The notes: a model not told the origin generated them from the sequence alone. Positions 10,770 to 24,138 are shown, numbered from the stretch's first letter. The stretch is DNA of 64,000 nt from Verrucomicrobiota bacterium (GCA_947454705.1 CANGKZ010000011.1:1-64000); one strand, 5' to 3'. Program-made: numbers and translations.

Positions 10770-11435
10770 GTAAGGGCTCATGTCAGAAGGAGTTTAGCAA
10801 AAGCGGTATTCCCTTCAAGTTTACATCCACGGGCTAAATAGCCGGAAAGGTTGTCAGGAATTGTCAGGAAAACGAACAGCGCCCCGGCTTGTGGGTTTTC
10901 CTGAAGAGGTTCGCTGACCAGCGACGGAAGGCCATTGAAGCCCTTGCGCATGTCGCAGGGTTCCACCGCCAGAAAGGCCTTCAGGCTCGCGGCGAAACTC
11001 GGCATGACGCAAGCCTCCGAACGAGTTGGATCACTCGCGGGATCTGGGACGAGTGAATGAATTTCAATCGAACTGCTCGGGGGGGCGACAGTCAGCGGCT
11101 CCAGCTTTGAGCTGGGGATCACCGTCTCGATGAAATCAACGGGTTTGGTGTGTGGACGGCGACGCTTCGGTGAGGCACCCGGCTTCAATCGCCGCTGTCG
11201 GAGCCAACCAGCAAAGGTCGGGTACTTCACGCCGATGTGCTTGGCGAACTCCACCCCGCTGGTTCCGCTGCGGTCAAACTCCGCAAGAATCTTAGCCCGC
11301 TTCTCAGCCGAGGTTTGCATCCGCCCCACAGAATCCGACTTCAACAACTGCGTATCCGAAGGCATAAACGTCATAATGAAACCACTATGACCCTTATGCT
11401 CCGCTCCAAACACCGGCGCTATGTGTGACGCTTAC
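10770..11435 (-). mobile_element. Internally deleted IS66-family element
   Basis: On the minus strand the element starts GTAAGCGTCACACATAG at 11435, a typical IS66 terminus. At the other end, reading the plus strand from 10770, is the similar GTAAGGGCTCATG. Between them only TnpA and the first part of TnpB remain and TnpC is missing. The eight bases flanking each side differ (AGTTCGAC and GGTCATGG), so no target duplication is seen. It lies directly inside the left attachment-like site. Confidence 0.6.
10778..11320 (-). pseudogene. IS66 TnpA fused to truncated TnpB
   Basis: Residues after MQTSAEKRAKILAEFDRSG match the TnpA (Orf1) accessory protein with its helix-turn-helix and the YPTFAGWLRQRR segment. 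About residue 120 onward matches the start of TnpB (FLAVEPCDMRKGFNGL). TnpB breaks off after GALFVFL and is followed by an unrelated tail. In an intact element TnpA and TnpB are separate overlapping genes, so both the in-frame fusion and the truncation mark this as non-functional. The ORF runs upstream to 11413, but the IS66 match begins at 11320. Confidence 0.75.
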
Positions 11436-11576: not shown

Positions 11577-11840
11577 TCACCGACGCCCGAGGAGGCCGGC
11601 CTTGCGGGACTGGTACTCCGCGTCGGAAATCTGCCCGAGATCCCGCATCTCGCGCAGTTTCGTCAGGTGGGTGCGGATGGCTGGGCTGGCATCGGCGGGG
11701 ATGTCATCGACCCGAACCTCCGTCGCGGGTGGCGCCGCCGCGGGCTGCTGAACCGGAGGCGGCGGCGTTTTGCACCCCACACCCAAGGCGAGGCAACCGA
11801 GAAGCAACCCGGTCGCCAACGAAGACTTCGAGATAGTCAT
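11577..11840 (-). CDS. Small SHOCT-like lipoprotein
   Basis: The protein is 87 aa with a lipoprotein signal ending in LALGVGC, so Cys23 would carry the lipid. A Pro/Ala-rich linker (PPPPVQQPAAAPPA) follows. The C-terminal 28 residues (LTKLREMRDLGQISDAEYQSRK) resemble a SHOCT domain, a short oligomerisation-type helix pair found at protein C-termini. It is the last gene of the seven-gene minus-strand envelope cluster, 28 bp after the preceding lipoprotein gene. Confidence 0.7.
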   Translation of the reverse strand: MTISKSSLATGLLLGCLALGVGCKTPPPPVQQPAAAPPATEVRVDDIPADASPAIRTHLTKLREMRDLGQISDAEYQSRKAGLLGRR

Positions 11841-11868
11841 AACAGTTTCTTGGAGGCGCAGCCGTCGC

Positions 11869-12498
11869 CTATTTCGAGACTTGGGAAATCCGTATCCGCC
11901 CCGCCAGCTTCACGCCAGCGGGGACGGGCGCGCAAACGAAGCGGTCAAGAATCACCGACAGCTCCAGTGGATTGCCCGATCCCGCCTCGGCGATCCGGCG
12001 GGCAGCCTGCAACACCGCTTGGTCAATGGCGGCGCCCAGATCTCCATCCGATGCGGAAACCTCAACCGCGGCGTCCGCCTTGACTGCATTCCGCGTCGCA
12101 GGCGGGCGGGCCGCGGTCCAAGGCAGTTCCATCCATACCCAACCGGCCTTAACGGAGCGTGACGGGGGGCCGAGGCCCCGCAGTTCACCGGCTTGATGCG
12201 AAGACTCGTGTAACACCTCGCGCACAGGTTCCAGTTGGAAGCGTTTGATCTCACCCGTCGCGAGCGAAACGAGGCGGAGCAGGCGTAGCTCTGCGGCCAA
12301 GTCGGCGCGTTCCACAGCGGAGGCAGATTGGCTACGAAGGGGCGCCAACCCCACGAGGTTTAGGCTGGGCTCCACGAAGTTGCCCCCAGAGCCATCCTTG
12401 GCAGAACAGCCGGCCAGAAGGCCAAGCATCAGAATCACCACGCCCCTCACTTTGTTTACGAAGGAAGGCACAGAAAACGGTTTTTGAGGCGGTCTCAA
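11869..12498 (-). CDS. Lipoprotein of the envelope cluster, function unknown
   Basis: The ORF gives 209 aa from a TTG at 12498, which overlaps the stop of the upstream gene. A GTG at 12474 gives a neater signal (MPSFVNKVRG VVILMLGLLAGC) and may be the true start. The lipobox LLAGC is clear. The rest has no domain I recognise; it contains a segment with alternating charged and aliphatic residues (ERADLAAELRLLRLVSL) and a C-terminal LAGRIRISQVSK strand. Overlap with the coiled-coil gene upstream implies co-translation. Confidence 0.65.
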   Translation of the reverse strand: MRPPQKPFSVPSFVNKVRGVVILMLGLLAGCSAKDGSGGNFVEPSLNLVGLAPLRSQSASAVERADLAAELRLLRLVSLATGEIKRFQLEPVREVLHESSHQAGELRGLGPPSRSVKAGWVWMELPWTAARPPATRNAVKADAAVEVSASDGDLGAAIDQAVLQAARRIAEAGSGNPLELSVILDRFVCAPVPAGVKLAGRIRISQVSK

Positions 12499-14189
12499 AA
12501 GTCGTCGTCGGACTTTTTCGGCTTGGCGCCCACAGCGCCGTCCAGCGTCTCGGAGCCCTGGCCGCCGCCGGTCTTGGATTTGGCCTTGGAGGCGGCATCT
12601 TTCTTCTTCTGCGCCGCGACGCGGGCCGCGGTCTGCTTATCGAGCGCGTCAGCACCGTCCTGGTGCCCCTGGCCGTACGAGGCTGGGTCGTCTTTGGATG
12701 CCTGCTTTGAGGCTTCCAGCTTATCTTTGCGGCCCTGAAGCCGGGCATTCTCACGGTTGGCGGCAATTGCGGCCGCATAGTTGATCTCCTCGACCGTTCG
12801 GGCCGCCTTGACAGACTCAGGCCCGATGCCACTGATTGTGACGAGCAGCTTGGTGCGCGTGAGGGGATGCTCTACTTCGACCTCGTGAATTCGGCTGAGG
12901 CCGTTGAGGTTCTGCCCCTCCAGCTTCTGGACGATGGTCTTGGACAGGGATTCCAGCGCCTGCTCCCCTTCGCGCCCATCGGCTTTCAGAACGGTCTTGG
13001 CCAGTTGCTCTGCGGTCTTGGCGACCTCCACATCCGCACGGAGGCTCAGGACGGTCATCTGGTCCGCCATCAGGCGTGCAACGTCCCGGTTCTTCTCCAT
13101 TCGGGAGGCCCCTTTCACCACCGCGCGTGCCGCGATGCCGATAAAATAGCGCTGACCACGCTCATCCATGAACGTGCGAGGGCCGACCATGGCGCCAAGA
13201 TCCTGGCCCTCCAACCATTCGGCGAGAGTCAGGCCCTGTTTTGGGGCGTCCAGGGTCACTTCCTGGCCCTGAACGATGGCGCGTGTGGCCTTCTCTAACC
13301 CGACGCTCCAGACTAGGGCGACTACGACCGTATATTTCTCGTCCAAGCTGCTCCAAGCCTCGGTTTGATAAATGCAACTGGAGCCAAAAAGCGGCATCTT
13401 CGCGAGCTTGGTGATCTTGTTGCTGAAGGTGCGCGTGACGGCGCCAGCCTGCTTCCTGATTTCGGCCTCCACTTTCGCCAACTCCTGGGTGGCCTGCTGG
13501 TAGCGTGTCTTGGCGCGTTCGTACCGCGCGCGCTTCTCCTCTTCGATCTTCTCTCTTGAGTAAATGGCATCCAGCCGTTTGATGGCGGCATCCATCAAGG
13601 CATTGACACGATCCCGGGTGGTGGCGCCGCGCAGGGCTTCGGCCCCGGTCTGGTCGAGGTCGGCCAGCAGCAGGGCGACCGCCTGCTGCTGGGCGGCCAA
13701 TTGCCGCTGCAGGCGCTCCTCCTGCTCACCGAAAGCGGCGTTTAGGTCCGTGCCCGGGGTCTGGGCCTGCATCAGGACGTCGAGTTTGGAGTTCGCAAAC
13801 TCCACGATCTGCGACCGGGCGTCCAGCAGCGCTCGTTGCGCCGCGATCTCGCGGTTGACACAAAACGTAGCGGGGTCGATCGACGGATCCTCGGAGTTGA
13901 ACTCGCCCTTGCCCACGGCGATGTAGCGCTGCCTGGCTTCGTCCCAGCCCTCTTGGAAACGGCCTTCTTTGAGCCACTTCTTGATCAAGGTATCCGCGGA
14001 TGCCCCAGCTTGGTAGTGGTTGCCGCCGCCCGCCGCTTGAGTTTGAGCTTGTTGGACCGCCTGCACTCCGCCGTCGCCGCGCACATCGACCGTGGCGGCC
14101 GGACTCACAGGGGCCTGGCCGATGGCCAAGTTTTCCGAAAGGAGGAGTATAAACGCCGCCGCCACACTGACACTCGATTTAGGGTTCAT
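12495..14189 (-). CDS. Secreted coiled-coil protein of the envelope cluster
   Basis: A protein of 564 aa with a signal peptide (about residues 1-24, ending AIGQA). A Gln/Ala-rich stretch follows, then an LPP20-like segment (NREIAAQRALLDARSQIVEF, about 112-131), then long heptad-like helices (about 145-255, EERLQRQLAAQQQAVALLLADL and KIEEEKRARYERAKTRYQQAT). A globular part of about 260-475 contains MPLFGSSCIYQTEAWSSLD and YFIGIAARAVVKG. The last 80 residues are Lys/Ala/Asp-rich, ending KKSDDDF. Function is unknown. It lies 9 bp after the FlgT-like gene and overlaps the next lipoprotein gene. Confidence 0.72.
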   Translation of the reverse strand: MNPKSSVSVAAAFILLLSENLAIGQAPVSPAATVDVRGDGGVQAVQQAQTQAAGGGNHYQAGASADTLIKKWLKEGRFQEGWDEARQRYIAVGKGEFNSEDPSIDPATFCVNREIAAQRALLDARSQIVEFANSKLDVLMQAQTPGTDLNAAFGEQEERLQRQLAAQQQAVALLLADLDQTGAEALRGATTRDRVNALMDAAIKRLDAIYSREKIEEEKRARYERAKTRYQQATQELAKVEAEIRKQAGAVTRTFSNKITKLAKMPLFGSSCIYQTEAWSSLDEKYTVVVALVWSVGLEKATRAIVQGQEVTLDAPKQGLTLAEWLEGQDLGAMVGPRTFMDERGQRYFIGIAARAVVKGASRMEKNRDVARLMADQMTVLSLRADVEVAKTAEQLAKTVLKADGREGEQALESLSKTIVQKLEGQNLNGLSRIHEVEVEHPLTRTKLLVTISGIGPESVKAARTVEEINYAAAIAANRENARLQGRKDKLEASKQASKDDPASYGQGHQDGADALDKQTAARVAAQKKKDAASKAKSKTGGGQGSETLDGAVGAKPKKSDDDF

Positions 14190-14198
14190 AGGGTCGCT

Positions 14199-15437
14199 TT
14201 ACTTGAATAGGTCATCCACTGCGCTTTCGTTACCGTTGGACTGTTTCACACCGGTCGCGGTTGGCTCCGCAGGTCGGCGGCAAATCGAGCCCACAGCGAT
14301 CGTTGCCCCGCCGGCCAGCCGTCTGCCGTACGAGACCTTGGGCAATACCCGCACGATCTCGATACGGCCGACCGACTTCTCTACCGCGCCCAGCTTCTCG
14401 CCCGTGGCGGAGTCCATTATCGTGTCGCCGACCGCGAAGACCTCGAACTGCTGGCCCTCCAAGACGGTCTCCCCACCGCGGTCAATCGCCACCTCTCCGT
14501 CCACCAGTTCCGCCACGCGGATCGGATAGATCGTGTCTAGGATGCGATCCGAGAATTGGCGGCAGACCCAATCCACCAGCGCGAGGTGCGGGGTGGCGCC
14601 CCCGAATTTCACTTTCACGAATTGGTTGAGGAGTTGGTTCACCGCCAGCACAGTCTGGCCCGAGTCCACTCGAATCACGCGAATCGAGACCAATCCCGAG
14701 GGCCGCGTCACGGTCGAAGTCGTAGTCCCAACCTGGACCGTGTTCTGGGCGATGGCAAAGGACTCGCAGGAGCCTACCACCAGATAATCGGCTCTCAACC
14801 GGGAGGCCCGGCGAATTAGCGTTTGGAGTCCGGTTTCGAGGTCCGTATCTGACTCGCCCACGCGGCTCAGTTCACCGGCAAACGTCTCGTCGAGCACTGC
14901 GAACTTGCGGCTCGAAGCGAGATAGGCAACCAAGCCTTGGCGGAAGCCAACCGCGAGGGAGTCGGGGGTTAGTTTGCCGGCCGGGGTGCTGCACTCACCC
15001 ACGACCTGGAAAGGCAGGATAAGGAGGGATTTACGGCCTTCCCGGGGCTCCAGAACGACGGTGGCGATTGTCACGTCCAGTTCGACTCGGTAGAGGCCAT
15101 CTGTGGACCTCCCCTCAGAAGTAACCTCCCAGGATGAGACCAGCCCCTTGGTGGTTTTTTGTACGCGGGAGATGTATTCCTCGCGGCTGCTAAACGAGCT
15201 CTTGCCCTTCTTCGTGATCTCCAGGCTGCCTAGCTCGGTGGCTGTCATCGCGTCGAGCTTTACCCCCGTTACCTTGGAAACCGCCTCCACCAAGGCCGCC
15301 TCGATGGCCTTGGCCCGACCAGGCTCCAGCGCCACGGCTTGCACCGTCCGGGTGGTCACCTCGGCTGCGAAGGTCGACGAGGCGAGGAAGGATAGGAGGA
15401 CGCCCCAAAGTAGCGGGTGGGCACGGGCGAGGATCAT
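14199..15437 (-). CDS. CsgG/FlgT-like secreted protein
   Basis: From ATG 15437 (a GTG five codons earlier is possible) the protein is about 412 aa with a signal peptide ending TFAAEV. Three parts recall FlgT. An N-terminal segment (about 20-120) has the ALVEAVSKVTG repeat-helix look of LPP20/FlgT-N. A middle alpha/beta part (about 125-310: SLLILPFQVVGE, LADYLVVGS-type strand, ILDTIYPIRV) resembles CsgG/TolB-N. A C-terminal SH3-like part (VLEGQQFEVFAVGD, TGEKLG, VGRIEIVRVLPKVSYGR) resembles FlgT-C. FlgT supports the Vibrio flagellar H/T rings and CsgG forms the curli secretion pore. No flagellar or curli genes are present here, so the function is open. Confidence 0.72.
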   Translation of the reverse strand: MILARAHPLLWGVLLSFLASSTFAAEVTTRTVQAVALEPGRAKAIEAALVEAVSKVTGVKLDAMTATELGSLEITKKGKSSFSSREEYISRVQKTTKGLVSSWEVTSEGRSTDGLYRVELDVTIATVVLEPREGRKSLLILPFQVVGECSTPAGKLTPDSLAVGFRQGLVAYLASSRKFAVLDETFAGELSRVGESDTDLETGLQTLIRRASRLRADYLVVGSCESFAIAQNTVQVGTTTSTVTRPSGLVSIRVIRVDSGQTVLAVNQLLNQFVKVKFGGATPHLALVDWVCRQFSDRILDTIYPIRVAELVDGEVAIDRGGETVLEGQQFEVFAVGDTIMDSATGEKLGAVEKSVGRIEIVRVLPKVSYGRRLAGGATIAVGSICRRPAEPTATGVKQSNGNESAVDDLFK

Positions 15438-15522
15438 AGGCGTTCGAGGCACAAAATATTCGCGAACCGACGCGGGCGATTACCGATCTGATTCCTAAGC
15501 TCCGGTCGGAGGCGCGCCTTCC

Positions 15523-16161
15523 TCATTTGGGGGGCTGGAAGTCGTGTTCGTCTCCCGGGGGATTTAGGCCCTTGGCCTTGGCGAGCTTGTAGCCCATGGA
15601 TGCCATCTTGGCGAAGGTGCCCAGATCTTTGGTGCAAGCCAAGCCGAGGTACACCAGTTGCGGCTGGCTAGCCAACGCCGCGGGATTCTTGTCCGTCACA
15701 TTCTTGATGGCCAGGGCGGTCGAGCCGGCCACAACCATGTAATCGGGCCAGGCCTCCTTCACCTTGGCCTGCGCCTTGAGCAATTCCTGACCCTGTTCCT
15801 GAGTCAGTTGCAGCTTCTCCGGATGGTCGGCGTACTTAGCCATTTCCTTCGAAATCACGCCGAGCGTCTTGAACCCCAGGACGGCCTGCCCGTCCTTGGT
15901 CTTCGCGTCCGCCTCCATCTTGTTGATCTTCTCTTGAAGGCCAAACACCACGGCATAATGTTTGGATGCTTGGGTCAGCTTCTCCGAGACCGGTGTAACC
16001 TTTTCGAAGAGGCCTGCGGCGAGGCCTGAGATGTCCCCTGCTGCGTCCCCGCCACCGCCCGTCAGTTTCTTCCCCAAGCCTCCGAATTGGGCCTGGATGG
16101 GCAGGCTGCTAAGCCCCAGCAGCAGGGCGGTGACCGTTAAAACGATTCGACTGAGTTTCAT
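15523..16161 (-). CDS. Secreted protein of the envelope cluster, function unknown
   Basis: The protein is 212 aa with a signal peptide (MKLSRIVLTVTALLLGLSSLPIQAQ). A Gly-rich stretch (about 25-45) is followed by a mostly helical body with many Lys and Ala residues, for example VSEKLTQASKHYAVVFGLQEK and LKAQAKVKEAWPDYMVV. I do not recognise a family. It is the third gene of the cluster by transcription order, starting 55 bp after the stop of the upstream gene; that gap contains one arm of the 48-bp inverted repeat. Confidence 0.7.
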   Translation of the reverse strand: MKLSRIVLTVTALLLGLSSLPIQAQFGGLGKKLTGGGGDAAGDISGLAAGLFEKVTPVSEKLTQASKHYAVVFGLQEKINKMEADAKTKDGQAVLGFKTLGVISKEMAKYADHPEKLQLTQEQGQELLKAQAKVKEAWPDYMVVAGSTALAIKNVTDKNPAALASQPQLVYLGLACTKDLGTFAKMASMGYKLAKAKGLNPPGDEHDFQPPK

Positions 16162-16201
16162 AATAGTGTGGCGGTGCTTAGTTTCTTTTTTTCTGTATTC
16201 G

Positions 16202-16249
16202 TTGTTTACCGAAAGTTCAAAAAACGCCTTTTGCGTTCAACTTGTCAGC
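16202..16249 (+). repeat. 48-bp inverted repeat, left arm
   Basis: TTGTTTACCGAAAGTTC...CTTGTCAGC is the perfect reverse complement of 18473-18520. The arm overlaps the last codons of the minus-strand gene 16217-17332 (DKLNAKGVF and stop). On the minus strand it contains AACGC AAAAG GCGTT followed by T residues, which could act as a weak intrinsic terminator. Confidence 0.92.
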
Positions 16250-17332
16250 GATCATCTTCGCGGCGATTTTCGCGGCTCCCGTCAGCGCCGCGGTCTCCGC
16301 CTCCGTGGCGGATTCCCCGAGGCCCGCATACTGGATGGCCTCCAGCGCCCCGGCTGTCGTCGCGAAATCGTCCCGGCAGTCGATGACCTTCGCATAAACG
16401 ATGATATTAACGCGGGTGCGTCCACTTGCCGGATCGCGTTGGGGCTTCTCGATGGTCAAAGTCCCGTAGCCATAGAAGGGTAGCCGGGGCTTCATTGTGG
16501 AACAGGCCTCCGCCGCGTCTTGGATTAGCTCGGCATCCACATCATTGCCAACTTTGAAGGCCTCTATGAACTTTTCGACCGCAAAGGCCCCGTTACTCCG
16601 CTTCCGGAGTGTCGCCGCTGGTACCATTCTGAAATTCCGTTCCACCAGCGCCCCTTCCATGGCGGTATCCAGCGCGTCCGCCGTGGCCACGTCGTAGAGG
16701 ATCTTTTCGGTGCGCGCGATTTCCGCGCTCTTGCTGACTACGGCGTCGTCGAACTTGGTGGTCACAGCAACTTGGGTTTTGTCTCCCGTTACCTGCTGCA
16801 CGTCCGTCCTGGTGTCCGCTCGAAGCACGGAATTCCCTGTGATCACCTCAGTGCCGAACCGTTTCACCTCAGTCTGGCGGCGAGAGACGAAGATCAGCGA
16901 GATGTAGTTTTTGGCGCCGGACTGCTTCGGCAGCAGCAGATCAACCGATTTTTCGTTCACGTACCCGACCGCCGCCAAGCTGAGTGTTTTAGCCTTAGCA
17001 TCCACCTCAGGCACCCCCACTTGGTCCACGCCGGTCACAATCGTATCCAGGTTTCGGTTAATCGCCTCCGCCGAGGTGGTTATCAGCACCTGCCGCGGGG
17101 CGGAGCACTGCTGGATGTACTTGCGTAGAATCTCCGCCCGGCAGGCGGAAAGGGCGGTAGCTACTTCATCCGGCGCGGGCTTTTTGGCTGTGGACTTCTT
17201 GGTCGGTATGGTCACGTAGACTTGAATTCGGACTTGGTTTGCGTCTTGGGCTAACAACCGCTCGTTGCCAATCCAGCAGAGGAGTAGAGCGAACGTGAGC
17301 ACGAAGGCTCGCGTTGAGTGCAACTTTTTCAT
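16217..17332 (-). CDS. Secreted protein of the envelope cluster (371 aa)
   Basis: The signal peptide is MKKLHSTRAFVLTFALLLCW... ending RLLAQ. The mature part begins with a strand (VRIQVYVTIPTK), followed by EVATALSACRAEILRKYIQQC, the kind of amphipathic helix seen at the start of LPP20-like domains. A VFVSRRQTEVKRFG-like segment lies mid-protein. A C-terminal half contains FYGYGTLTIEKPQRD and ends in helices with ETAALTGAAKIAAKMIADKL. I know no family for the whole protein. It starts 9 bp after gene 17342-18520 and is probably co-translated with it. Its last nine codons lie in the 48-bp inverted repeat. Confidence 0.72.
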   Translation of the reverse strand: MKKLHSTRAFVLTFALLLCWIGNERLLAQDANQVRIQVYVTIPTKKSTAKKPAPDEVATALSACRAEILRKYIQQCSAPRQVLITTSAEAINRNLDTIVTGVDQVGVPEVDAKAKTLSLAAVGYVNEKSVDLLLPKQSGAKNYISLIFVSRRQTEVKRFGTEVITGNSVLRADTRTDVQQVTGDKTQVAVTTKFDDAVVSKSAEIARTEKILYDVATADALDTAMEGALVERNFRMVPAATLRKRSNGAFAVEKFIEAFKVGNDVDAELIQDAAEACSTMKPRLPFYGYGTLTIEKPQRDPASGRTRVNIIVYAKVIDCRDDFATTAGALEAIQYAGLGESATEAETAALTGAAKIAAKMIADKLNAKGVF

Positions 17333-17341
17333 ACGGAATCT

Positions 17342-18520
17342 TCAGTTCTTGATCGTCGCCACGATAGCGAGCCAAGCCTTATCCTTGTCCGCGCCCTGCG
17401 CGAAGCGCTCCTTCAACCCGTCGTCGATGGCGGCACGGTAATACACCCGTAGTACACTGGCATCGATGGTGTCCACATGGTCTGAGGAAAACTGACGTAT
17501 GACCGCGTAAGCCCAGTCCTTGGTGAAGAGGGTACCGCTGTTCGGTTGGAATCGGACGGAGGCCATGCAACCGAAGCGCTTGGCCACTTGGCCGGGCTTG
17601 CTATATTTCTTGTCTACATAGCTAGCCGCCCCATGGAGGTTCAACACCGCGGTCACGGTAGGGGGTTTCATCTGGAGAATCCGCTCCAACGCATTCGTGC
17701 CCGCCGCCGAGAGCCGGGCCTTGTCCGAGAAATTGATGGTGAGGGCGGCGAGGGTGCCATCACCCTCCCCTACAGGCAGGACGTTCACGCCGTACCTCGC
17801 CGCGAGGAGGGAGGCGAGCCGCCCGGCGAAGTAAGCGCCCCATTTGGCCTCGTCGTCTGGGCCGGCGACCCGCAGCGCCGCACAGGTAGCCGAATCCATT
17901 TTGGCCAATTGGATCTGGAGACGACCGAAGTTGGCCTTGGGGCGGATCGGCATTGTCACAAGTTTGGACAAGGCATCGTCACCCAGGCCTCCAATCGCCT
18001 GGCGCACATGTTCGGCGAGGTATTCCGCGTCCGGTTTGGTGGTCCCAGCTCGAATCGGTTGGAACACGCCAACCGGACTACTGGCCACAATGATGGCAGT
18101 CTGAAAATCGAATACCATGACCGTGCCTGCGATTATAAGCTGGCCGAAATAATCACCTTCCAGCTCAGCGACGGCGAGATCCTCCGAATCGATAACGAGG
18201 GTAGCCATCAAGCCGTCCCCACGGCCATAGTTGAAGTCTTGGCCAACCAGCAGGTTCGCGTCAGGATGTTTGAGGGACCGCACCCGCTCCGCGAGGGTGT
18301 CGTTCAGCTGTGAGAGAAAATCCCCACGGGTTGTGAACGGAAAATTCTTTTCTCGGTCGATGGCTTTGCCTCGAAACGAGACTCCACCCCACGCCACTCG
18401 TTCCTTAGAAGCCGCGTGAGCCGCGGACACCAAGCAGAAGAATAGCAGCAAGGAGATACGCGCGCGAAATCTGCTGACAAGTTGAACGCAAAAGGCGTTT
18501 TTTGAACTTTCGGTAAACAA
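17342..18520 (-). CDS. First gene of the envelope cluster, secreted, start unclear
   Basis: The ORF runs from 18661, but residues before the signal-like core (RISLLLFFCLVSAAHAA) come from the 48-bp inverted repeat and sequence beyond it, and no ATG or GTG sits just upstream. A TTG at 18520 is the nearest in-frame candidate, giving about 392 aa, with no good ribosome binding site. The mature part has KLVTMPIRPKANFGRLQIQL and a C-terminal half with FGCMASVRFQPNSGTLFTKDW. I recognise no family. The repeat may have replaced the original 5' end of this gene. Confidence 0.6.
   Translation of the reverse strand: MFTESSKNAFCVQLVSRFRARISLLLFFCLVSAAHAASKERVAWGGVSFRGKAIDREKNFPFTTRGDFLSQLNDTLAERVRSLKHPDANLLVGQDFNYGRGDGLMATLVIDSEDLAVAELEGDYFGQLIIAGTVMVFDFQTAIIVASSPVGVFQPIRAGTTKPDAEYLAEHVRQAIGGLGDDALSKLVTMPIRPKANFGRLQIQLAKMDSATCAALRVAGPDDEAKWGAYFAGRLASLLAARYGVNVLPVGEGDGTLAALTINFSDKARLSAAGTNALERILQMKPPTVTAVLNLHGAASYVDKKYSKPGQVAKRFGCMASVRFQPNSGTLFTKDWAYAVIRQFSSDHVDTIDASVLRVYYRAAIDDGLKERFAQGADKDKAWLAIVATIKN
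18473..18520 (-). repeat. 48-bp inverted repeat, right arm
   Basis: Perfect reverse complement of 16202-16249. This arm lies at the 5' end of gene 17342-18520, where it supplies the residues before the signal peptide. Its sequence is the 3' end of gene 16217-17332 in opposite orientation. Confidence 0.92.
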
Positions 18521-19117
18521 ACCAAAAAAGATTAGACGTTCGATCGGATTGCGGAGGAGCCATCCTTCAGTGTTGGCTAGGATGTTTGGATGAAGTTCTC
18601 GCACTCCGGCGGGTTGTTCTAGGCGCCGGCGCCTTTCATTGTCGTCAGCAGCCCAAGGCAAGCAAACACCACCATGCTATATACTGGTGAATTATCCCTG
18701 TGATAGCTGATTGACGGTAGCTCATTAAATTGTTCCCGGCGTGCGAATAGCTTCAGAGTACTTAAACACAACACCCACCACACCGTCGGCTTTTTTTTTT
18801 CAACCTATCGAATCGCTGGTGAATTCGGTAAGAAGTATATTTTCATAAATATCATCAAAGTGTGTAACAGCTTTTGAAACGCATCGTGGCGACCGATTTT
18901 CAAAGAGGTAGTTGTGCTACAAACAGCAGTTGGAAGACTTGCCGACGTGCTGAAGATGTTGTCCTGATGCGGGATGAGCGGTTTCCCGGCATTTTCTGGG
19001 GCTCACCCTGGGGGTGAAGCGGAACTGCGACGTCCTGCTGGGCAGGCGGCCCCCACGCCGCCGGTGGTGGTCGACACCCAAGGCCGACGCTTCAACGTCG
19101 AGTGGAGTCCCCACGCC
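18521..19117. other. AT-richer intergenic stretch upstream of the envelope cluster
   Basis: No convincing gene. The stretch contains a T11 run near 18789-18801 and an AT-rich tract near 18830-18855 (ATATTTTCATAAATATC), and would have to hold the promoter of the minus-strand cluster. From about 19014 the plus strand encodes VVVDTQGRRFNVEWSP in one frame, which resembles the N-terminus of a transposase type I have seen in related genomes; this match is weak. It ends at the IS-like terminus near 19118. Confidence 0.4.
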
Positions 19118-19386: not shown

Positions 19387-21645
19387 TCAATTACCGGACG
19401 GACTAAGGACCAAACGGAAACCTTGGTCATGATTTGTCGTGTTCGGTTCTCGTTGATTTCGGCGAGCTGCTCTGCAATCCGCAGCAACTCTGACCCAGCT
19501 TCCGCCCCTAAAAACGTGGTGATCACTTGTCGTTGTTCCCTTGGGATCCACAACAAACCCGCCGGGGTAGGCCCCGTACTGATCTGAGCACCACTGCCAG
19601 ACGTTGCCGTACATGTCAAACAGGCCCCATTGATTGGGTTTTCGCTCACCGCTTACGTGTGTAGTACCGCCGCTGTTGGCAACAAACCATGCATACTCGT
19701 TGATTGCAGTTTCAGTGAGATCGTCCCCAAAACTGTACCTCCGAGAGGTGCCAGCACGTGCGGCGTATTCCCATTCTGCCTCGGTAGGCAGCCGGTAGGC
19801 GTAACTTGGTGGAATCTTGCCTGCTGCCAAATCAACAGCTGTGAGTTTTGCGCAGTAGGCTGATGCTTCCTCCCACGTGATGGTATCTACCGGCAGATCA
19901 AGGCTGCCATGAAACCATGAAGGGTTAGTTCCCATGAGTTGGGTGTACTCCTTCTGCGTCACTAAAAATCGGCCCATCCAGAATCCCCGCGTCAACGCGA
20001 CAGTCGTTTGCGGTCCTTCGTCTGCATAACGAGCCAACTCATTCGTCGGACTTCCCATTACGAATTGACCGGGAGGAATCCAAACCCATTTGAGGTAATC
20101 AGGATTTGGATAGGGAGCTGGAACAAGAAGGGTCCGAAGTGGTTTTGCGCCAAGACTCAGCGGCACGGCTGCTGGAGGCGGGGCGATTAAAACAGTTGGT
20201 GCATTTGTGTATGAGCGCCCAGCGTTGGCGACCGTAATGGTTTTGATTGTCCCAGCCTCGACCTGAGCCGTGGCAAGTGCACCTGTCCCCCCTCCTCCAA
20301 CCAGTGAAACTAAGGGGGGCTCCGTGTAACCCAGACCAGAGTCCATCACTGTTATGCTCACAACAAAACCGTTCACCACTTGAGCTGCAGCTAAAGCCCG
20401 AATGGGATTCGCCGGACCTGCCTGAGTTGCTCGGTACAATCGAGCCGTCAATGGAATGACTGGGGGCTCAATGAAGGCCGATCCTTTTCCAGCGAGAATA
20501 AAATTCGTAAAAGGCGTCCAAACGAATGGCCGAACCAGATGATCGCACACATCTACGGAGGTTTGAACACCAGGAACGCCCGAAACACTGATCACAGTCA
20601 GCGTTTCAATGGGAAGCGATGGCCGTGGGGACGCGACCTGCACGGAGGTCGATGCGCTGTAGCCACTGCCAGCGTTTCGGACAACAATTTCTGTCACCAC
20701 TCCATCCACCACACGGGCCACGGCCAGACCACCGATGCCTTGTGCGTCGTTAATGGTGACCTCCGGCGGATCTGAGTATCCGCTTCCGCCATCAACGATC
20801 ACCATGCCTACGATAAATCCGTTGAGAACGACGGGCGTCACAATCGCAGACCGGCTATCCCCACAGTGTTGATGGATGGTTTGTGGAGAGGGTGGCGATG
20901 AAATCATGGCTGTACCGGCGATCTTGCCGTTGTTCCGGTTTCCACTTCTGTCTGCTGACGTCCCGTCGTTGAAACTCCAACTGCCCATCAAACTAGTGTC
21001 CGCAACCGATCCACATTGGTACTCCGCGAGAATCTCAGCGGCAGACAGCGCACGATTCCAGATTCGGAGCTCATCCATCGCACCCGCTGCGGCAATGGCC
21101 GGATCGTTTACCGGGTTTTGATTTCCAAACACCAAAGGTAGGGTCGATTGCCGAATCGCCTGCGAGTTAATCGGATTGCCTCCTGCGTCAACGGTCCGAG
21201 TGGCTGCCAACACCCCGTTGGTGAAGAGCCTCAGTGTGCTGCTCGGCTGGTCATAGGTTGTGGCAAAGTGGGTCCAGGTATTTGAGGCAACGTTCTGAGC
21301 GGCAATGGTTGCCCACGTGCTTGAACCCAGAAACAGCTGAAAACTCAAGGTGCGGCCGGGAATTCCCTGAAGCTTTGACCAACTCAACCAATACGACTGA
21401 TCGCTGAAAGCGTTTTGGCCATCGCCCTTTCCCAGAAACACCTCATTTACGGCACCGTTTTCGACCGGGTACAGCCATCCCTCGATGGTGATACCTGATG
21501 GGTTCTGCAGGCCCGGGGTGCTGGCCACTTGGACGAACCCGCCTGTGTTGAGTAGGAGCGCTTTATTGGGCGTTTGTGCATCCAAGTCCGCTGCGGTAGC
21601 CAGAGCAAAGAGCCAAAGGATGGAGATGCTTACGATTCGACGCAT
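19387..21645 (-). CDS. LamG and FGE-sulfatase domain secreted protein
   Basis: A protein of 752 aa with a signal peptide (MRRIVSISILWLFALATAADLDAQ). Residues of about 30-235 form a LamG/concanavalin-like domain (GITIEGWLYP, WTHFATTYDQ, MDELRIWNRALSAAEI). Residues of about 270-500 hold four diverged repeats built on (D/N)xGxGY(S/T)xPPxV. The C-terminal 240 residues are a formylglycine-generating-enzyme-type (SUMF1) domain: FVMGSP, RLPTEAEWEYAARAGT, GNVWQWCSD, FRGGSW and DQGFRLV. In these phyla such domains are often binding modules rather than enzymes. It is divergent from the sigma factor gene 86-107 bp away, suggesting shared control. Confidence 0.88.
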   Translation of the reverse strand: MRRIVSISILWLFALATAADLDAQTPNKALLLNTGGFVQVASTPGLQNPSGITIEGWLYPVENGAVNEVFLGKGDGQNAFSDQSYWLSWSKLQGIPGRTLSFQLFLGSSTWATIAAQNVASNTWTHFATTYDQPSSTLRLFTNGVLAATRTVDAGGNPINSQAIRQSTLPLVFGNQNPVNDPAIAAAGAMDELRIWNRALSAAEILAEYQCGSVADTSLMGSWSFNDGTSADRSGNRNNGKIAGTAMISSPPSPQTIHQHCGDSRSAIVTPVVLNGFIVGMVIVDGGSGYSDPPEVTINDAQGIGGLAVARVVDGVVTEIVVRNAGSGYSASTSVQVASPRPSLPIETLTVISVSGVPGVQTSVDVCDHLVRPFVWTPFTNFILAGKGSAFIEPPVIPLTARLYRATQAGPANPIRALAAAQVVNGFVVSITVMDSGLGYTEPPLVSLVGGGGTGALATAQVEAGTIKTITVANAGRSYTNAPTVLIAPPPAAVPLSLGAKPLRTLLVPAPYPNPDYLKWVWIPPGQFVMGSPTNELARYADEGPQTTVALTRGFWMGRFLVTQKEYTQLMGTNPSWFHGSLDLPVDTITWEEASAYCAKLTAVDLAAGKIPPSYAYRLPTEAEWEYAARAGTSRRYSFGDDLTETAINEYAWFVANSGGTTHVSGERKPNQWGLFDMYGNVWQWCSDQYGAYPGGFVVDPKGTTTSDHHVFRGGSWVRVAADCRAARRNQREPNTTNHDQGFRLVLSPSGN

Positions 21646-21752
21646 ACCCCTCCCATCGCTGACCCTCTGGTGATCGTTACACCATTATTTAGATTCCTTG
21701 AAACAGTCGCCACAATTGGAGCGATGGGGTAATGGTGACCCTCGTGTTCCCC

Positions 21753-22370
21753 ATGACGGATGATTCTCTGCCCACCCGGGTCAGTTTGTTGAGCAGGCTC
21801 CGGGATTTGGCGGACGATACCTCGTGGAAGGAGTTCTACGAGCGGTATCGGCGCTTTATCTTTCAGGCCGCCCTGCGGAAGGGGCTTAGTTCACAGGACG
21901 CCGAGGAAGTTTTGCAGGACACCGTGGTTTCCGTGGCTCGTGGGATTCCCAATTTCGTCTACAACCCCGCCATTTGCTCGTTCAAGGGGTGGTTGATGAC
22001 CATCACACGCCGCCGCGTGGCGGACCAACTGCGCCGACGCGGTCGCCAAGTACCGTTGGCTGAAACGGCCGGGGACATTCCTGCCGGTGGAATCTTGGTC
22101 GATTCCCCTTTCGAGGCGGCATGGGAGGCCGAGTGGGAGAGCAATCTAATCGAGGCGGCCATCGATCGGCTTCGGTTGACCATTTCCCCGAGGAACTATC
22201 AAATTTTCGACTGGACGTTTCGGATGGGGCGTTCAACGCAGGAGACCGCTGCTGCCTTTGGTATTTCCGCCGGCGTGGTTCGGGTGACCAAGCTCAGAGT
22301 TCGATTGCAGTTGGAAAAGCACCTCCGGCAAATGCGGCGGGAGCCTTGGCCGGAGGGATGCAAACCGTGA
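21753..22370 (+). CDS. ECF-type RNA polymerase sigma factor
   Basis: About 205 aa from ATG 21753 (21732 is possible). The region 2 segment includes FYERYRRFIFQAALRKGLSSQDAEEVLQDT and FKGWLMTITRRRVADQLRRRGR, the -10 recognition helix of ECF sigmas. Region 4 (about 150-200) includes IFDWTFRMGRSTQETAAAFGIS, a helix-turn-helix. No anti-sigma factor of a known class follows. Instead the gene overlaps, by GTGA, a 55-aa ORF that in turn overlaps a Ser/Thr kinase gene. ECF sigma factors associated with kinases are known in Planctomycetes and Verrucomicrobia; control by phosphorylation is inference. Confidence 0.9.
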   Translation: MTDDSLPTRVSLLSRLRDLADDTSWKEFYERYRRFIFQAALRKGLSSQDAEEVLQDTVVSVARGIPNFVYNPAICSFKGWLMTITRRRVADQLRRRGRQVPLAETAGDIPAGGILVDSPFEAAWEAEWESNLIEAAIDRLRLTISPRNYQIFDWTFRMGRSTQETAAAFGISAGVVRVTKLRVRLQLEKHLRQMRREPWPEGCKP

Positions 22371-22534
22371 GCAGGCTGTGGGCATTCCTGCGGCTTGTTT
22401 TGCGCATACCGCTCGATACGACTTCGAAACGGATGCTCCGATCTGAAAAGGAGTTCGATCGCGCCATGGAACGCCGGATTCGGCGGAGCATTGAGCGGCG
22501 ATTGCACGGTCGATCAACTCACGGAACCGCATGA
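22367..22534 (+). CDS. 55-aa protein between sigma factor and kinase
   Basis: The GTG at 22367 lies in GTGA, overlapping the sigma factor stop, and has GGAGG ten bases upstream. Its stop lies in ATGA, overlapping the kinase start. The product is about 55 aa: a short hydrophobic N-terminus (RLWAFLRLVLRIPL) followed by a strongly basic helix (EFDRAMERRIRRSIERRLHGRS). No known domain. Double four-base overlaps support a real, translationally coupled gene. It is absent from the supplied ORF track as such, appearing only as the tail of a longer shadow ORF. A role as linker or anti-sigma-like partner is a guess. Confidence 0.65.
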   Translation: MSRLWAFLRLVLRIPLDTTSKRMLRSEKEFDRAMERRIRRSIERRLHGRSTHGTA

Positions 22535-24138
22535 GTGAACCGCTGCCGACGATTCCAGGGTACGTCTTACTCTCCCCAATTGGCCGGGGTGCGTATGGCG
22601 AGGTGTTCCTCGCGGAAGACGCTGCCGGGCGTCGAGTTGCTCTCAAGGTGGTCAGCCCACGACCCGAGCTCACCGACAAAATGCTTCAACGTGAGCTCGG
22701 GGGCCTGAAGCGCTTTCTCGCCGTGGCAGAGAGCGATCCTCATCTGGTTCGAATCCAAGAATTGATTGAGAATCTGCCCTGCGGTGGCTTTGCCTACGCC
22801 ATGGAGCTGGCCGATTCTGTCCACGGACATGGATTGGCAGATTATGTCCCCCTCACTCTGCGCCATCGCCTCAAAACGGTGGGCCGTTTGCCGGTGGAAG
22901 AAACCCTCCGGATCGCGATCGGATTGTGCGCCGCTTTGGAGCATCTCCACCGCCAGGGGTTGGTCCACCGGGACGTGAAGCCGGCCAATGTGATCTTCGT
23001 TCATGGACAACCCAAGCTCGCGGACCTCGGGCTCGTCAGCGGTGAAAGTGATTCCACGTCATCGGTGGGGACGCAAGGCTACCATGCCCCTGAGGGCGCC
23101 CGTGGCCCCAAGGCGGATCTCTTCAGCCTTGGCAAGGTTCTTTACGAGATGGCAACCGGATGTGACCGGCAGGATTTCCCGGAGCTCCCCCCAGAGTTTC
23201 CAACATTTGAAGATTCATGGCGGCTCCTGGGGATGAATCCTGTTTTTGCCAAGGCCTGCGCTGCCAATCCTGCACGGCGGTACGCCAATGCCGGCCAGTT
23301 TCGGCGGGACTTGTTGCTGCTTCAATCCGGTGGCTCCCTGTATCGGCGACTGTGGATCAAGCGCGTAGGAATTACTTTCCTGTTGATGGCCGGGATTTGG
23401 GGATTGGGCAGGGAATTTTGGAAGCGTGAACAGGAGGAGACTTTTTGGCGGAATCTGCCACCCGTGGAACGAGTGAACCGGGCTTACAGCCGCGAGTACG
23501 CCGACTCGTGGCGGCGTCATTTCATCCCTTCCCGTCCCAATCGATTGGACCCTCGCCAGATTGATCTGACTCCATTTTATAATGGGGCGCTCGCCCAATC
23601 GATCTTTCTAACCCTCAATCCTCGTGAGGCGGTTGAAAATAACTGGGGCACGCTGCCCTCCGGGACCGTTATTTTGGGTGGGGTTCCATTCGACCTCCGA
23701 GGCGTGGTCCAATTGAACGGGCGCAACACTGAGGCTCGGATTGCCGGACTGATCCCGCGATCCGTCGTGATCCCCCTTGATCGCCTGGTTCACCGTCTCC
23801 ACGTGTTGCATGCTGTCCAGTGGGGAGATCCTGCGGGGACGGTGGTGGCCAGATACCGCCTGCATTACGCCGATGGATCGGTCGAGGAACTGCCCATGGA
23901 GTTTGAGCGGGATGTGATGGCTTGGTGGGTCGGTTGGAACCAGCCGCATGGGGATCTGTCGAGGGCTAAGCGTGTCGCAACTGGAAGCAACGCGGCTCTT
24001 CCAGGCGACCAATGGAGTCTCGCCCTTTACCTTCGTAGCTGGGACAACCCGCATCCGGAGCGAAGGGTCACTCGCGTGGAGTTTGAATCGATGATGCAGA
24101 ATTCCGCACCCTTCATTGCTGGACTTACCGTCGAGTAG
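22531..24138 (+). CDS. Transmembrane Ser/Thr protein kinase (PknB-like)
   Basis: A protein of 535 aa. The kinase domain fills residues 1-265: glycine loop GRGAYGEVF (18-26), ATP-binding Lys39 in VALKVV, catalytic HRDVKPANV (about 147), DLG in place of DFG (about 166), and an APE-like HAPEG. One membrane segment lies at about 285-303 (GITFLLMAGIWGLGREFW). The extracytoplasmic part (about 305-535) carries FYNGALAQ, GVPFDLRGVVQL and YRLHYADGSVEELP, a beta-rich module I have seen in Verrucomicrobia proteins but cannot name. It is coupled to the 55-aa gene and sigma factor and is the last gene before the tRNA. Confidence 0.88.
   Translation: MSEPLPTIPGYVLLSPIGRGAYGEVFLAEDAAGRRVALKVVSPRPELTDKMLQRELGGLKRFLAVAESDPHLVRIQELIENLPCGGFAYAMELADSVHGHGLADYVPLTLRHRLKTVGRLPVEETLRIAIGLCAALEHLHRQGLVHRDVKPANVIFVHGQPKLADLGLVSGESDSTSSVGTQGYHAPEGARGPKADLFSLGKVLYEMATGCDRQDFPELPPEFPTFEDSWRLLGMNPVFAKACAANPARRYANAGQFRRDLLLLQSGGSLYRRLWIKRVGITFLLMAGIWGLGREFWKREQEETFWRNLPPVERVNRAYSREYADSWRRHFIPSRPNRLDPRQIDLTPFYNGALAQSIFLTLNPREAVENNWGTLPSGTVILGGVPFDLRGVVQLNGRNTEARIAGLIPRSVVIPLDRLVHRLHVLHAVQWGDPAGTVVARYRLHYADGSVEELPMEFERDVMAWWVGWNQPHGDLSRAKRVATGSNAALPGDQWSLALYLRSWDNPHPERRVTRVEFESMMQNSAPFIAGLTVE

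Follow-up and report, generated by a model that had tools for sequence, protein, structure and literature searches.

Seven co-directional ORFs, named here A to G, occupy positions 11577-18520 on the minus strand of the window, i.e. the whole 64,000-nucleotide stretch of a Verrucomicrobiota genome that we analysed (GCA_947454705.1 CANGKZ010000011.1:1-64000). The spacers between them, from A to G in turn, are 9, 55, 70, 9, -4 and 28 nt; the sole overlap is the 4 nt shared by E and F and the remaining spacers measure 9-70 nt, a spacing that argues for one operon. Sec-type signal peptides were read by eye at the N-termini of A to E, as were lipobox-like ends in F (LAGC) and G (GVGC), and all seven products are predicted to be exported. 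Homologues of these ORFs, with about 15-60% identity over most of their length, lie in the same order elsewhere, hence we consider them real genes. Searches of Pfam, NCBIfam and PADLOC with the single window proteins gave almost nothing, and the informative comparisons were those using family profiles and structures. Regarding anti-phage defence, the sole match to a PADLOC profile was at chance level (0.044) and fell on the coiled-coil part of E.

Domains of the seven products

Gene D (14199-15452, minus strand) encodes a 417-aa FlgT-like protein, with a FlgT-N-like domain, a CsgG-like middle and a FlgT-C/TsaP-like C-terminus. When its AlphaFold model (pLDDT 79) was compared with the PDB using Foldseek, FlgT (3w1e) came first, with an E-value of 1.6e-18 over 399 columns, followed by the Vibrio LPHT ring (1.7e-16), CsgG (1.4e-6) and PelC. 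As modelled, D has the whole three-domain FlgT fold. Its sequence profile gave TsaP as the best PDB match, in the FlgT-C-like region (6ve2, 1.6e-13; 3jc8, 4.7e-6). Window D matched no Pfam FlgT domain, and one homologue reached FlgT_C with E=0.48. Several D homologues exceed the Pfam CsgG cut-off, and weak Pfam LpoB matches fall within the CsgG-like domain of D homologues; Pfam CsgG was found neither in window D nor anywhere in its own genome.

The exported product of gene B (16217-17332, minus strand; 371 aa) gave, as the top PDB match of its AlphaFold model (pLDDT 78), a chain of the Vibrio LPHT ring (8z5n, E=8e-6), followed in order by CT253, CsgG, GNA1162 and TolB. The model suggests a FlgT/CsgG-like fold, as a similarity of domains. 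Whole-chain TM-scores of B and D were low (0.25-0.32) though the alignments span most of the chains, probably due to differing domain orientations, so we claim the likeness domain by domain only. Gene A (17342-18520, minus strand) encodes an exported protein of 392 aa, with homologues at 15 or more loci and without significant matches in Pfam or NCBIfam. Aligning family A with family D by hhalign pointed to a CsgG/FlgT-middle-like domain, through a weak match to the CsgG-like part of D (E=1.1e-4, 154 columns, probability 57%). Gene C (15523-16161, minus strand) encodes a small exported protein (212 aa) of no known family, with no match in Pfam or NCBIfam, and its homologues, most of them flanked by B and D, were found at no fewer than a dozen loci. 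PDB profile searches with A, B and C returned nothing credible, and a glutamate-receptor-type match of A (0.015) was dismissed as chance. A 457-482 aa protein lying beside the module at three loci (L051, L063 and L064) was compared with C as a possible stand-in, without support.

The N-terminus of A is uncertain, since its start codon (TTG) lies inside an inverted repeat whose other copy is at the 3' end of B. This repeat is perfect, 48 nt long (16202-16249 and 18473-18520), and brackets A and B exactly. The copy at the 3' end of B is native, and the LNAKGVF ending of B is conserved; the other copy, upstream of A, seems to have taken the place of A's normal start. An alternative start, also a TTG, lies upstream of 18520, at 18661. 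Absent from 16 homologous loci, the repeat could be a local rearrangement, an invertible segment or an assembly artefact; inversion of the A-B segment through it was weighed, and no homologous locus carries the repeat.

Gene E (12495-14189, minus strand) encodes a DUF6844-like protein of 564 aa made of two tandem halves that are mutually homologous (hhalign 3.3e-10), with a coiled-coil-like insert within the first. The E profile matched the solved F. tularensis protein FTT_1539c (4qvr) over nearly its whole length (1.6e-64), and E homologues in two relatives (G022 and G028) exceed the Pfam cut-off for DUF6844 (PF20891); window E alone gave no Pfam DUF6844 match. Judged by sequence, E belongs with the DUF6844/FTT_1539c family, for which our literature search found nothing under the name DUF6844. 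Gene F (11869-12498, minus strand) encodes a small lipoprotein (209 aa) without a family, whose homologues lie immediately after E at five loci (L025, L027, L047, L048 and L050) and were found in Verrucomicrobiota only. Comparing F with LPP20 proteins and with E by hhalign gave no clear support for an LPP20 label, which we do not use. No relatives of C or F were found outside the module. Finally, gene G (11577-11840, minus strand) encodes a small proline-rich lipoprotein (87 aa) with a C-terminal SHOCT domain, scored at 1.3e-5 and 25.2 bits, slightly under the Pfam value of 27, and above the cut-off in the L047 homologue (2.6e-7). G homologues follow F at L047, L048 and L050, and lie downstream at L026.

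An earlier, sequence-only reading had described this locus as seven neighbouring minus-strand genes for exported proteins, and the ORF coordinates, the spacing and the signals read by eye agree with that description. The three-part FlgT layout it had seen is borne out for D by structure (Foldseek against 3w1e, E=1.6e-18), and so is the SHOCT-like tail, now placed in G by both the window protein and its L047 homologue. Its impression of LPP20-like helices stood in part: E resembles DUF6844 and its two halves are homologous to each other, and Pfam LPP20 itself was matched by none of the cluster proteins.

Recurrence and genomic setting

Using tblastn over 96 relatives, we found D and E clusters in three genomes (G083, G022 and G035) and D in a fourth (G028), and the ORFs around these matches correspond to the window genes and keep their order. 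Further loci came from a contig scan with the D alignment and then from iterative HMMs for each family. The complete A-G set, in the same order, is present in two other Verrucomicrobiota: the Verrucomicrobiales MAG F1-140-MAGs024 (L047, the same contig as in G401) and an Umea1 MAG (L048; G486). Sets of A-B-C-D, some without E but usually with it, were found at L025, L028, L065, L121 and L126, and in Duodenibacillus (L056), Kordiimonadaceae (L057), Opitutae (L060) and Oxalobacteraceae (L061). Five loci (L051, L062, L063, L064 and L065) have rearranged or reduced sets, and an acidobacterial one (L055) has B-D-E. Loci added later were L121, L124, L126, on the megaplasmid of Cupriavidus metallidurans CH34, and L127, on a plasmid of Caballeronia sp. 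SBC2, where the module lies a few kb from site-specific integrases. In CH34, A-D span 6845-11179 of L126, or about 2457096-2461430 of the megaplasmid (NC_007974). At L064, it sits between a gene for a TrpG-type glutamine amidotransferase and trpD- and trpC-type genes. In some betaproteobacteria E is short or missing; in this group, D is followed by a short protein with no more than a weak resemblance to the second half of E (best hhalign 6.7e-5). In the Opitutae locus (L060, 10900-15845), the module is followed by a Band-7/GYF protein and by an ORF that looks integrase-like by eye.

Among 320 genomes of the order, B was present in 11 and E in 10, with both in 9, B only in 2 and E only in 1 (Fisher 6e-15, uncorrected for relatedness). 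Genomes with both carry them on one contig, with the exception of G352, in which each is on a short contig of its own. Neither B nor E was found in any of seven congeners (0/7). The module is therefore a sporadic accessory one.

The flank with a sigma factor and a kinase (21.7-24.1 kb) has counterparts of 70-78% identity in G002, with homology stopping at 21642. Counterparts of the CrtC/FtsX flank (4.6-9.2 kb) exist in both G001 and G002; nothing of the 9.3-21.6 kb segment was found on the matching stretches of these two genomes. This break in flank homology, together with a G+C dip at 17-22 kb and an IS66 remnant, fits an accessory segment. The remnant is probably what a single ORF at 10778-11413 represents, in which an IS66 TnpA-like part is fused to a TnpB-like part; the genome has another stretch of 82% identity to it (L118, 2672-3116). 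On the other side, at 19387-24135, a LamG and FGE-sulfatase gene diverges from the genes for a sigma-70-family factor and a protein kinase, and another contig (C1, L118) carries a paralogue of the sigma-kinase pair together with a divergent gene that is similar in part.

Co-occurrence of the cluster genes in other genomes, which had been put forward as a check, is seen as the same genes in the same order, complete at L047 and L048, and as B with E in nine genomes. The suggestion of a complex carried on an island was right as to the accessory, island-like setting, while the new kind of complex that it proposed stays conjectural. Gene order and content are repeated well beyond one island, in Pseudomonadota and Acidobacteriota and, reduced to E-D, in Campylobacterota, so the module is widespread and uncharacterised, not a one-off.

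Flagellar genes and LpoB

The source organism is probably flagellate, given that another contig of its genome (C51) carries genes for FlhA, FlgI, a FlgE/F/G-type rod protein and a flagellin-like protein. These are the nearest flagellar genes found, and none was seen beside the module among the neighbours read; nor did the window neighbours scanned with Pfam include a curlin subunit, CsgE or CsgF, in line with the earlier claim that no curli or flagellar gene lies nearby. Genes for a secretion ATPase, a curlin-like protein, a polysaccharide synthase or an inner-membrane transporter did not recur among the neighbours read. In the order, FlhA (FHIPEP) is present in 8/11 module genomes and in 124/309 others, a weak association (one-sided p=0.03, two-sided 0.056, uncorrected for relatedness). 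FHIPEP is missing from three module genomes of the order and from others outside it, and those with the module and no FlhA match include G035 (91% complete), G253 (98%), G292 and G296. According to these results, the module is not an obligate part of the flagellum.

Where E and D occur without A to C, an LpoB gene precedes E (L054, L066, L067 and plasmid p1 of Azospirillum sp. TSH100), with LpoB scores of 1.2e-41, 1.8e-36 and 1.2e-13 at L054, L066 and L067, respectively; L125 is among the loci with lpoB beside E-D. The order at L054, from Sulfurimonas, is LPP20, a conserved 489-aa protein, DUF1425/YcfL, LpoB, E and D, and the annotated one on the Azospirillum plasmid is a 441-aa protein, YcfL, LpoB, DUF6844 and D. 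This protein of 441-517 aa is one family across L054, L058, L067, L125 and L033. The LpoB-YcfL lipoprotein operon, with LpoB as an activator of PBP1B, thus adjoins E-D in several phyla; D has roughly double the length of LpoB, and the window operon has neither lpoB nor a DUF1425 gene by Pfam. The sequence-only reading had seen no known partner system, a claim that calls for correction, as E-D lies elsewhere directly behind lpoB, often with ycfL, and E has a solved relative in FTT_1539c.

That relative has a comparable setting. FTT_1540c is annotated as LpoB (PMC8149597) and FTT1537c-FTT1540c form one predicted operon (PMC4696196), so the Francisella operon would start with LpoB-E if it is transcribed as the 'c' numbering implies. 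It comprises LpoB, the DUF6844 protein FTT_1539c, a full-length relative of E, and two hypothetical proteins, with the same lpoB-E start as in Azospirillum, Sulfurimonas and L066. In contrast, the window operon lacks lpoB and has A, B, C, F and G. FTT_1539c is immunoreactive after immunisation with outer-membrane vesicles (PMC10963506).

Candidate function and alternatives

We tentatively favour, at somewhat under an even chance, a scaffold of the outer membrane and periplasm that would act at the peptidoglycan, independently of the flagellum, and be made from the one seven-gene operon. The operon would encode an outer-membrane-associated periplasmic complex with a core of D (FlgT fold), B and A (CsgG/FlgT-type domains) and the two-domain DUF6844 protein E, while the lipoproteins F and G would sit at a membrane. 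A ring or collar beneath the outer membrane may be formed by D and probably B, as the analogy with FlgT, CsgG and PelC suggests. The recurrent lpoB-E-D operon of other phyla suggests that such a collar acts at the interface between outer membrane and peptidoglycan, a presumed location and link in which it might serve to position or regulate the LpoB-type activation of peptidoglycan synthesis, or some other machine that spans the envelope. In the window, A and B, whose CsgG-like domains belong to a broad class including LpoB, may take the place of LpoB. Against this scaffold reading stand the lack of lpoB in the window operon itself, the lack of informative relatives for A, C and F, the low whole-chain TM-scores of B and D, and the higher frequency of FlhA in module genomes of the order (8/11 vs 124/309).

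Hence, one could argue that the module is a flagellar accessory, equivalent to the H/T-ring of Vibrio (FlgO, FlgP and FlgT) or to a basal disk around the flagellar bushing. D has the complete FlgT fold in its model, B resembles the LPHT-ring chain, and the organism's own genome carries flagellar genes on C51, including flgI, rod, flagellin-like and flhA genes. The Vibrio H-ring is built by FlgT with FlgO and FlgP (PMC7990780), whereas the partners of D are the DUF6844 protein, A, B and C; D lies outside any flagellar operon and its sequence stays under the Pfam FlgT thresholds. Besides, at the loci read the module never lies beside flagellar genes, it is absent from 7/7 congeners, five of which have FlhA, and it is present in genomes without an FlhA match, such as G035, G253, G292 and G296. 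An E homologue also exists in Francisella, which is non-flagellate. We consider a flagellar accessory unlikely, and equally so an exporter of an outer-membrane polymer (curli-, Pel- or Fap-like), in which D, B and A would be a CsgG- or PelC-like pore or funnel. CsgG and PelC are both structural matches of D, and several D homologues exceed the CsgG cut-off, but the likeness to CsgG is limited to the middle domain of a three-domain FlgT chain, flanked by FlgT-N- and FlgT-C-like domains, FlgT itself is not a pore, there are no curli or Pel genes, and among the neighbours read none expected of an exporter recurs.

The TsaP matches of the D profile (6ve2 and 3jc8) would suit a collar for the secretin of a type IV pilus or type II secretion system, TsaP being the type IV pilus secretin-associated protein. 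The likeness is confined to the C-terminal region of D, which shows by Pfam no LysM domain such as TsaP has, and neither pilus nor secretin genes were seen among the neighbours read, which leaves this reading improbable. Least credible of all, to the point of being nearly negligible, is that unrelated envelope genes lie side by side by chance. It is true that gene content varies outside A-E, that F and G are limited to Verrucomicrobiota and that some betaproteobacteria have E short or missing; however, the order is repeated in several phyla with near-complete co-occurrence, and for A-E synteny refutes it.

Taken individually, the parts of the module belong to known fold classes, and what they make up is a FlgT/CsgG-type envelope module without a flagellum. 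A bolder proposal, which we regard as rather doubtful although less so than the alternatives above, is that of an undescribed, horizontally spread outer-membrane ring machine of FlgT type, independent of the flagellum and present across phyla, with the flagellar H-ring as one specialised branch. The known role of FlgT is in a ring of the flagellum, and a conserved operon of a FlgT fold with DUF6844, plus LpoB elsewhere, would place such rings outside flagella. The module would also put DUF6844, and with it the unexplained Francisella vesicle antigen FTT_1539c, in a setting open to experiment, for which harmless laboratory hosts exist, such as Cupriavidus metallidurans CH34.

Two related arrangements were seen during the search. 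At L068-L073, a second type of operon has DUF6844 preceded by a protein that shares with D the N-terminal domain only, with a CsgG-like lipoprotein (by eye) before them and a TPR or LPP20-like protein after. At L029, L031, L032 and L033, D-like CsgG proteins occur without E; their neighbours are members of a conserved family of lipoproteins (about 470 aa) and genes that look YcfL-like and LpoB-like by eye.
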